Shown piece by piece: positions 6,319-48,640 of a DNA stretch of 59,668 nucleotides (position 1 is the first letter of the stretch; every line of letters begins with the position of its first letter). The stretch comes from Fibrobacter succinogenes (GTDB lineage: Bacteria > Fibrobacterota > Fibrobacteria > Fibrobacterales > Fibrobacteraceae): assembly GCF_902779965.1 (NCBI RefSeq), contig NZ_CACZDK010000016.1, positions 1-59,668 on the forward strand. The letters run 5' to 3'. The notes under the pieces are model-generated. The model saw only the letters and a list, made by a program, of their open reading frames with translations, searched no databases and was not told the DNA's origin. The position numbers were made by a program, and so were the translations under genes.

Positions 6319-6573
6319 GAGCGATTTTTACGTAAAAAATGCTCGAAATTTGAATTTCTTACGTAAGATTTTTACTTTGTATGTACTATTTCTCTCGTTT
6401 GAGTGAATTTTTATGTTGTTTAAGTGCGGAATATGTTGAAATTGGAGACTCGATGCGCGCGAAATGGGAGGAATGGTATGCGTGTAATTGCCTTTTTTAG
6501 AAAATTTGCTTCATTTGTCTGCAAAATTACGTAAATAACAGGGCTTTATCCTGTTTTTTTACGTAAAAAATGG
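6319..6573 (-). repeat. Four-palindrome TACGTA element, copy 1
   Basis: TACGTA palindromes, most within longer A/T-rich inverted repeats, occur at 6329-6334, 6360-6365, 6528-6533 and 6560-6565 (intervals 31, 168, 32 bp). The first is the centre of a near-perfect hairpin bounded by GAGC at 6319 and GCTC at 6344. Reading the minus strand, a TACATAC word lies exactly 13 nt before the third palindrome, and copy 2 (48394-48640) has the same word at the same distance on the plus strand. The two copies are therefore inverted relative to each other. The AT-rich gap between DUF58 and the TonB receptor gene has no ORF I would support. Function unknown. Confidence 0.75.
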
Positions 6574-25346: not shown

Positions 25347-26414
25347 ATGGCTAATAATAAAGAGAACTTCCCTACAAAAGCAGTGGAATCGTTGTTCAAT
25401 AAAATATCCCCTCTTATTACGCAATCTCGTAAAATGATTGCAACGACCATCAATACTGCTGAAGTCTGCACCAAATTCAAGATAGGTCAATATATAGTCG
25501 AAGATGAACAAAAAGGCAAAAGCCGAGCGGCATATGGGAAACAAGTACTCATTCATCTATCTGCCAGACTGATAGAAAAACATGGAGAAGGTTGGTCCGT
25601 TGAAACATTAACTCTCTGTAGAAAATTTTTCAATGTATATTCGAATTTCGTAAACGGTGTTTACGAAATTGAGGGCAAATATAAATTCACACTTTCTTGG
25701 TCGCATTACCTGGTACTCATGCGCATCAAGAATGATGATGAACGCCGTTTTTACGAGATAGAGGCTACTTTCGGGAATTGGTCGGTTCGCGAGTTGCAGC
25801 GGCAGTATGGCTCAAGTCTGTATGAACGTCTTGCGCTGAGCCGGGACAAGGAACAGGTTGCCCGTTTGTCGCGCGTTGGCAATGTGATTGAAAAACCGGA
25901 GGATATCATCAAGAATCCGGTGACGCTTGAGTTTGTTGGTTTGAAACCGGATGCATCGTATTCAGAATCGAACTTGGAATCCGCTATCATTAGCAAGTTG
26001 CAAGAGTTCCTGCTTGAACTAGGGAAAGGATTCCTGTTCGAAGCACGCCAAAAACGATTCTCATTTGACGAGGACGACTACTATGTGGATTTGGTTCTGT
26101 ACAATCGTCTGCTACAGTGCTATGTGCTTGTTGATTTGAAGGTGGATAAGTTAACCCATCAAGATCTCGGCCAGATGCAGATGTACGTAAACTACTATGA
26201 CCGTTATGTAAAGCAAGATTTCGAAAAACCGACTATCGGTATTTTGCTTTGCAAAGAGAAGAAGGATACCCTTGTGAGGTTGACTTTGCCTGAAAACGTA
26301 AATATTTATGCATCTGCTTATGAGTTGTATCTGCCGGACAAGAAACTTTTGCAGGCGAAGGTCAAAGAATGGGTAAATGAATTTGAAATGCAAGATAATA
26401 GGGAGGTCACGTAA
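25347..26414 (+). CDS. YhcG-type PDDEXK nuclease (DUF1016), copy 2
   Basis: A 355-aa paralogue of the preceding gene with the same two-domain layout: SWSHYLVLMRIKNDDERRFYEIEA in the N-terminal domain (core SWSHYLVLMRIKNDDERRFY) and nuclease motif YYVDLVLYN...YVLVDLKVDK. The second acidic residue is Asp instead of the Glu in copy 1; this still fits a (D/E)-x-K site. The Met at 25347 is chosen over one 12 nt earlier because GGAGG then lies at normal distance. Sequence divergence between the two copies suggests old duplication or separate acquisition. The stop overlaps the start of the small broken ORF that follows. Confidence 0.9.
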   Translation: MANNKENFPTKAVESLFNKISPLITQSRKMIATTINTAEVCTKFKIGQYIVEDEQKGKSRAAYGKQVLIHLSARLIEKHGEGWSVETLTLCRKFFNVYSNFVNGVYEIEGKYKFTLSWSHYLVLMRIKNDDERRFYEIEATFGNWSVRELQRQYGSSLYERLALSRDKEQVARLSRVGNVIEKPEDIIKNPVTLEFVGLKPDASYSESNLESAIISKLQEFLLELGKGFLFEARQKRFSFDEDDYYVDLVLYNRLLQCYVLVDLKVDKLTHQDLGQMQMYVNYYDRYVKQDFEKPTIGILLCKEKKDTLVRLTLPENVNIYASAYELYLPDKKLLQAKVKEWVNEFEMQDNREVT

Positions 26415-48393: not shown

Positions 48394-48640
48394 ATCGTTT
48401 TTTACGTAAAAAACGATTAAAATCAATCGATTTTTACGTAAAATTCTGTATAAATTAATCAAAAATCGTGAAAAGTCCTCGCAATCGAGGATTTTTTTCA
48501 TTTCATGTGCTGCAAAAATTGAATTTTGGGAGGTTTTGTAGTGTGTTTGATGGCAAAAAATGCTTGATTGCTGGAAAATATTACATACAACGTTGAAAAA
48601 TTACGTAAAAAACTATGAAAAAGGAAAATTTCTTACGTAA
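48394..48640 (+). repeat. Four-palindrome TACGTA element, copy 2
   Basis: TACGTA at 48403-48408, 48435-48440, 48602-48607 and 48634-48639 (intervals 32, 167, 32 bp). The first is the centre of a perfect 24-bp palindrome (48394-48417). Between the pairs lie a hairpin TCCTCG-CAAT-CGAGGA followed by a T-run (48477-48499), and a TACATAC word at 48582-48588, 13 nt before the third palindrome. Copy 1 at 6319-6573 has the same spacing in the opposite orientation. It sits downstream of the synthase-like gene, and no ORF is supported here. Function unknown. Confidence 0.75.

Follow-up and report, generated by a model that had tools for sequence, protein, structure and literature searches.

Two arrays of short inverted sites lie in the window, by which we mean the whole 59,668-nucleotide stretch of Fibrobacter succinogenes DNA that was analysed (contig NZ_CACZDK010000016.1). 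TACGTA occurs at 6329, 6360, 6528 and 6560, and again at 48403, 48435, 48602 and 48634, with intervals of 31/168/32 and 32/167/32 bp, as a sequence-only reading of this DNA had reported. The features are as follows.

6328..6566, + strand: array 1, type I core: two inverted pairs made up of four TTACGTAA half-sites, with the GTATGTA side on the left
6328..6366, no strand: first inverted pair of array 1, sites 6328-6335 and 6359-6366, 31 bp apart
6371..6385, + strand: inner directional motif of array 1, TTTACTTTGTATGTA, which includes the complement of TACATAC
6527..6566, no strand: second inverted pair of array 1, sites 6527-6534 and 6559-6566, 32 bp apart
48402..48640, - strand: array 2, type I core, in the orientation opposite to array 1
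48402..48441, no strand: first inverted pair of array 2, sites 48402-48409 and 48434-48441, 32 bp apart
48506..48545, no strand: central pair of array 2, type III and apparently decayed; the orthologous array of genome G001 has an intact GCTAC..GTAGC
48582..48594, - strand: inner directional motif of array 2, TACATACAACGTT (AACGTTGTATGTA on the - strand)
48601..48640, no strand: second inverted pair of array 2, sites 48601-48608 and 48633-48640, 32 bp apart

The array edges reach about 50-60 bp past the outer sites. In each copy a TACATAC word had been reported at a distance of 13 nt from a palindrome, and this is what the sequence contains: GTATGTA at 6379-6385 follows the site ending at 6365, and TACATAC at 48582-48588 precedes the site at 48602. 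Because these motifs are on opposite strands, the two arrays are inverted relative to one another, also as proposed. One extra TACGTA, at 26184, is unrelated to either array. The window total of nine, against 4.7 ± 2.5 expected, is no clear enrichment by itself; it is the arrangement of the sites, rather than their count, that exceeds chance. Neither a known RNA family (Rfam) nor a tRNA was found in the window.

The genome that contains the window (G000) is a Fibrobacter assembly of 76 contigs and 4.09 Mb. The genomes compared are mostly drafts of varied completeness, with genes called as mechanical open reading frames. A genome-wide preference for these intervals had been set beforehand as a refutation test of the element, and the preference is present: TACGTA-N20-32-TACGTA pairs number 30 in G000 against 2 for a reversed control pattern, and pairs with a third site number 14 against 0. 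We collected about 17 elements in G000 and 16 in G001. Such elements contain over half of the 102 TTACGTAA of G000. Aligned in one orientation, the G000 elements have four TTACGTAA sites in common and a variable middle; the inner motifs differ between the two sides (GTTGTATGTAA and ACAAAnTAA), and the outer flanks, rich in A/T, have GC-containing cores. The copies are also similar beyond AT-richness, the second of the refutation tests set beforehand. A scan of named records found the element in the Fibrobacter succinogenes MAGs RUG10790, RUG12208 and RUG14562 and in one uncultured Fibrobacter. The unit is an inverted pair of directional half-sites about three turns apart, not the TACGTA palindrome; in sister species the pairs are TTACGTGA..TCACGTAA and the sites are no longer palindromic.

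With a relaxed type I site, the element is found in 14 of 80 Fibrobacter genomes, with 0 control matches. A motif-agnostic scan recovered the same architecture with other half-sites, TTACATACT..AGTATGTAA (type II), in 18 of the 80 genomes (control matches 0), the arrays usually being 63-136-63 or 84-84-84 bp. Type III half-sites, RTGCTACW..WGTAGCAY, came from a scan of 200 kb of G085 and occur in 10 of the 80 genomes as three pairs at 84 and 95 bp. About 12 further half-site words lie beside genes of the protein family described below, among them GGGGCGTAT, CGTACCTAT, GGGGCATAT, TTACGTACT and TGYTACCA. Types can also share a locus. On G000:C36 and G006:C15 a type I and a type II array occupy one intergenic region upstream of orthologous genes, and a type III pair sits between the type I pairs, in the corresponding place, in the G001 ortholog of array 2 and in a G086 array. 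Two specificities within one array are seen at 48506-48545 in the window, where the pair looks decayed, at L164:2082-2119 and at L334:2252-2289. The array 2 locus excepted, a search for a general central third pair in type I arrays gave nothing convincing beyond shuffles. A directional motif of approximately TTAnTTTRT lies just inside the outer pairs and is constant in types I and III despite their differing half-sites, and an outward GCA-containing A/T-rich motif lies outside the outer pairs in both; these common motifs may reflect a second, shared factor. A short hairpin-like repeat, GGAGATGCCCGGTCAGTGCCGGGCATGACA (L180:864-898), is a separate feature with many dispersed copies in Fibrobacter genomes.

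Spacing within and between pairs is regular. In 63 type I elements with four sites located, pair spacing is 31, 32 or 33 bp in 14, 108 and 4 cases, and the middle intervals are 146-148, 154-159 or 166-169 bp with none at 149-153 or 160-165 bp, in a search range that left out shorter and longer values (136 and 177-179 bp were found separately). Length differences between orthologous arrays amount to whole turns (136/146, 157/168). Across all site types the best period of the pair-to-pair distances is 10.46 bp (R=0.82; 131 distances, 83 sequence clusters), and the nominal probability of this phasing is not to be read literally because the set retains a few non-specific TTACGTAA repeats from other taxa and perhaps counts highly diverged orthologs twice. 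Distances quantised at the B-DNA repeat speak for double-stranded sites that share one face of the helix. That all sites face the same side had been proposed from the two window arrays, and the proposal is now strongly supported by the period over 83 non-redundant arrays and by the whole-turn differences between orthologs.

Close orthologs are identical at 382 of 384 site bases (99.5%), compared with 89.8% elsewhere in the array. This retention of sites while spacers drift, together with the phasing, gives strong support to the earlier suggestion of a protein-organised loop. At orthologous loci G000 and G096 carry TTACGTAA at each of the four sites, and G001 and G067 mostly TTACGTGA..TCACGTAA. 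That the four sites of an array have changed together between species points to a reader that acts in trans.

When the neighbours of all array types were compared, one protein family, that of P0005, recurred in more ortholog groups than any other. The G000 gene of this family is not in the window; it is found at G000:C4:145164-145994, flanked by two arrays of the window's type. The proteins have about 275 residues. Their N-terminal half is helical and varies by type, and their C-terminal half is conserved and contains the invariant motifs VRSKSE, DFT and WEH; E168, D204 and E219-H220 are invariant in 16 aligned proteins. Identity between types is 21% over residues 10-75 versus 50% over 151-276, and type-diagnostic residues, among them 51, 57, 75 and 76, are concentrated at 51-96. 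Residues 156-274 of P0005 match the C-terminus of the PADLOC entry PDC-S68 (E 3.5e-23). The predicted structure has an alpha-beta core (pLDDT about 80-90 in part) whose matches to PD-(D/E)XK proteins (Cas4, MunI, DrdV) are weak, with a best E of 0.14. We read the C-terminal half as PD-(D/E)XK-like, with a putative nuclease activity. The family protein matches no Pfam or NCBIfam model; a transposase match was found neither in Pfam even at E 10 nor in NCBIfam at E 0.01, and Pfam gave no Nop domain. Coiled-coil structural matches, including TasH, are within the noise for helical models and were not considered meaningful. Family searches match in 50 of the 80 Fibrobacter genomes, a count that includes larger proteins with the C-terminal domain only. 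Large proteins on IMG/VR viral contigs (L384-L392) also end in this nuclease-like domain, and no arrays were found beside those checked. Four family matches fall in two pieces within one open frame, with about 120 bp extra between profile positions 197 and 198 (G006:C161:51503-52426, G096:C9:95141-96064, G067:C21:128364-129281 and G062:C9:54832-55755), and perhaps form a distinct subfamily.

A phased array lies directly upstream of 48 of the 50 family genes examined, as determined by a motif-agnostic scan with three type III cases located separately. The same scan found arrays in 0 of 422 other gene upstreams and in 2 of 997 windows of bulk sequence. Among the first 30 standalone genes it found the array in most, the remaining type I and III arrays being hidden by an over-extended reading frame or lying on the other flank; 18 of the next 20 have an upstream array, and none was found for L403 and L404. 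Arrays on both sides of the gene occur for type I (L019, L084, L180), for the TTACGTACT type (L394, L397, L400) and in the Clostridiales locus L058, and for most family genes a downstream array was undetected. Site type follows protein phylogeny: placed on the protein tree, it requires 19 changes versus 38.2 for shuffled labels (17 labels; near-identical sequences contribute to this difference). Genomes with a typed gene usually hold several matching arrays, and arrays without a matching gene mostly number 1-3 per genome with the exceptions of G001, G019, G075, G101 and G062 (type III), a comparison made on drafts of varied completeness and partly circular because genes were typed by the adjacent array. 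In G001, G101, G019 and G075 there are several arrays of one type for which a matching gene was not found.

The arrays are intergenic, and most have no adjacent family gene and no fixed strand relation to genes. Those of types II and III lie between divergent or convergent genes in 26 of 39 cases. We rejected the idea that they form one regulon, the flanking genes being unrelated in function, and also a fixed distance from stop codons, since some arrays lie about 30 bp downstream and many do not. Arrays occupy orthologous loci across species and are intact there, and sets of arrays are gained and lost between close species. The array 1 locus is upstream of a DUF58 gene, which G014, G019, G006 and G027 have without the array. 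An array-gene-array unit is present in G067, G000, G096 and G063. In its place G001 has a solo recombinant array, with the crossover within the shared stretch of site plus inner motif. The unit is absent from G014, G085, G086 and G019. No target-site duplication was seen at the G014 junction in the comparison with G067, the one empty-site junction read closely among the few examined, and 12 bp of other sequence fill that junction.

Outside Fibrobacter, five loci of Clostridiales UBA1779 (L058, L064, L066, L072, L086), retrieved independently by a TTACGTAA scan, contain TTACGTAA in long tandem arrays whose spacing alternates between 33 and 29 bp. At L058 a family member with 28-38% identity is located between two TTACGTAA arrays. 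The gene and array system is present in Fibrobacter and in at least one Clostridiales genome. Loci in two gut Firmicutes MAGs (Lachnospiraceae/Clostridium; L067:3368-3565 and L088:6210-6406) have four TTACGTAA at 30/126/34 bp around an apparent promoter; no family gene was found there, and we set them aside as operators around a promoter, perhaps those of a looping repressor. Pattern matches in Sulfuricurvum, Psittacicella, Calothrix, Synergistales and viruses have other spacings and were taken as chance or coding repeats.

We consider it probable that the arrays are double-stranded binding sites of the cognate protein of about 275 residues, held in loops, with one array autoregulatory and the others dispersed. 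The variable N-terminal half would read the half-sites. Proteins bound 3 turns apart within an inverted pair, or 6-20 turns apart in neighbouring pairs, would share one helix face and could assemble a looped or wrapped complex. Autoregulation is the probable role of the array just upstream of the gene, as its position suggests. The other 10-20 arrays per genome would be dispersed intergenic copies whose upkeep depends on the protein. Their dispersal may resemble that of REP-RAYT systems, with a gene and non-autonomous cognate repeats, the PD-(D/E)XK-like C-terminal domain possibly acting in it alongside host recombination. The loops may additionally act as boundary or regulatory complexes. Several observations weigh against this reading: old arrays that are kept intact at orthologous loci suit a local function better than pure dispersal, four genomes have several arrays of a type for which no matching gene was found, the closely read empty-site junction shows no target-site duplication, and L403 and L404 had no upstream array.

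In REP/BIME and RAYT (TnpA-REP) systems a gene is flanked by cognate repeats that also have dispersed intergenic copies, the repeats being 20-40 bp hairpins with a GTAG head, in hundreds per genome (PMC2817692, PMC3116915). The system described here is alike in having a gene beside cognate repeats and dispersed intergenic copies, in that species-specific repeat types follow the protein type, and in that some genomes hold repeats without the gene. It differs in the protein, which by all searches made is unrelated to the IS200/IS605-like tyrosine RAYT family, and in the repeats, which are arrays 200-300 bp long, built of short inverted half-sites in phase with the helical repeat, 10-20 per genome and not hundreds. 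Looping repressors of the lambda CI, GalR and LacI type use paired operators at whole-turn spacing, and NrdR boxes are also about 31-32 bp apart. Paired sites with whole-turn spacing that favours a one-face loop are common to these repressors and the arrays, but the arrays do not belong to a single promoter or regulon, and a nuclease-like domain is part of the linked protein. No published description of such a system was found in a search of the open-access literature, and the combination of gene and sites is apparently undescribed. The earlier statement that the element fits no known repeat class is strongly supported and stands beside those on the same helix face and the loop. The suggested nucleoid or segregation role gained no such support. 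The partner gene with its matching arrays, out of reach of the sequence-only reading, speaks for a REP-RAYT-like system of gene plus dispersed sites no less than for a nucleoid site.

Several of these observations could be read otherwise. It is possible, if not what we expect, that the protein bridges DNA as a regulator, its nuclease-like domain being inactive or structural, and that the arrays are immobile anchor, insulator or looping operator sites. Whole-turn spacing, the intergenic position, intact arrays at orthologous loci across species and the preference of types II and III for divergent or convergent gene boundaries (26/39) are all consistent with this; however, the flanking genes have no common function, array sets are gained and lost among close species, and all 16 aligned proteins retain the putative catalytic residues. 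A defence role, in which arrays mark self DNA or restrain a nuclease that acts on invading DNA, seems unlikely. It would account for the C-terminal domain in common with the PADLOC candidate PDC-S68 and with large proteins of viral contigs, for the coexistence of several specificities per genome and for the patchy distribution. Yet the likeness is limited to one domain (PDC-S68 and the large helicase-nuclease proteins have about 1200 residues, and the viral relatives checked have no arrays), no neighbouring defence genes were identified, and scattered intergenic arrays are no known defence feature.

We think it still less likely that a TIGR02147 (DUF4423) protein reads the arrays and that the nuclease-like gene is just one target, although the family is expanded in Fibrobacter to 20-45 paralogs per genome and several of the genes have an array directly upstream. 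TIGR02147 genes below arrays are found at L026:5048-5881, L124:1876-2793, L158:977-1846, L133:1976-2809, L263:2438-3259 and L255:4112-4945, and the adjacency is somewhat above expectation, yet not general. One ortholog has an upstream array in G014 but none in G000, G006, G019, G082, G061, G005 and G074, most other sampled paralogs have no array, and linkage to the nuclease-like family is far stronger and is joined by the agreement of types. Very improbable, in our judgement, is an origin as structured RNA or guide-RNA arrays (hairpins, or CRISPR- or TIGR-like). Inverted paired sites could form stems and the arrays adjoin a nuclease-like gene, but the distances are quantised at the B-DNA repeat, the window has no Rfam match, and most arrays have neither an adjacent gene nor a fixed strand relation. 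TIGR arrays encode guide RNAs and have 36-nt units, in which repeats of 8-12 nt alternate with spacers of 9 nt; their Tas proteins have a Nop domain (PMC12045711). Like these, the present arrays are made of short repeats that adjoin a nuclease-containing gene and covary with its protein; in contrast, they have inverted half-sites 31-33 bp apart with 63-211 bp between pairs, a spacing and layout unlike the 36-nt unit (PMC12045711), and the protein gave no Nop match. Wrapped arrays of Lrp/AsnC were rejected: PF01037 is absent in 17 of 17 Fibrobacter genomes searched and present in 11 of 14 control genomes.

Slightly less firmly than the reading of the arrays as looped sites of the cognate protein, we regard it as likely that they belong to a genetic system of a new class, found in at least two phyla, in which a nuclease-domain protein has its own evolvable code of helically phased double-stranded sites and builds looped complexes at its own gene and at dispersed arrays, protein and site having co-diversified into more than a dozen specificities. 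Here an uncharacterised protein family comes together with its likely DNA targets in many natural specificities, which makes it an unusually direct data set for the protein-DNA recognition code and for the upkeep of helical phase in arrays during evolution. If the analogy with REP-RAYT is true, the system would be a convergent second solution built from unrelated parts. If the arrays are instead architectural, sites of chromosome loops would be readable from sequence.
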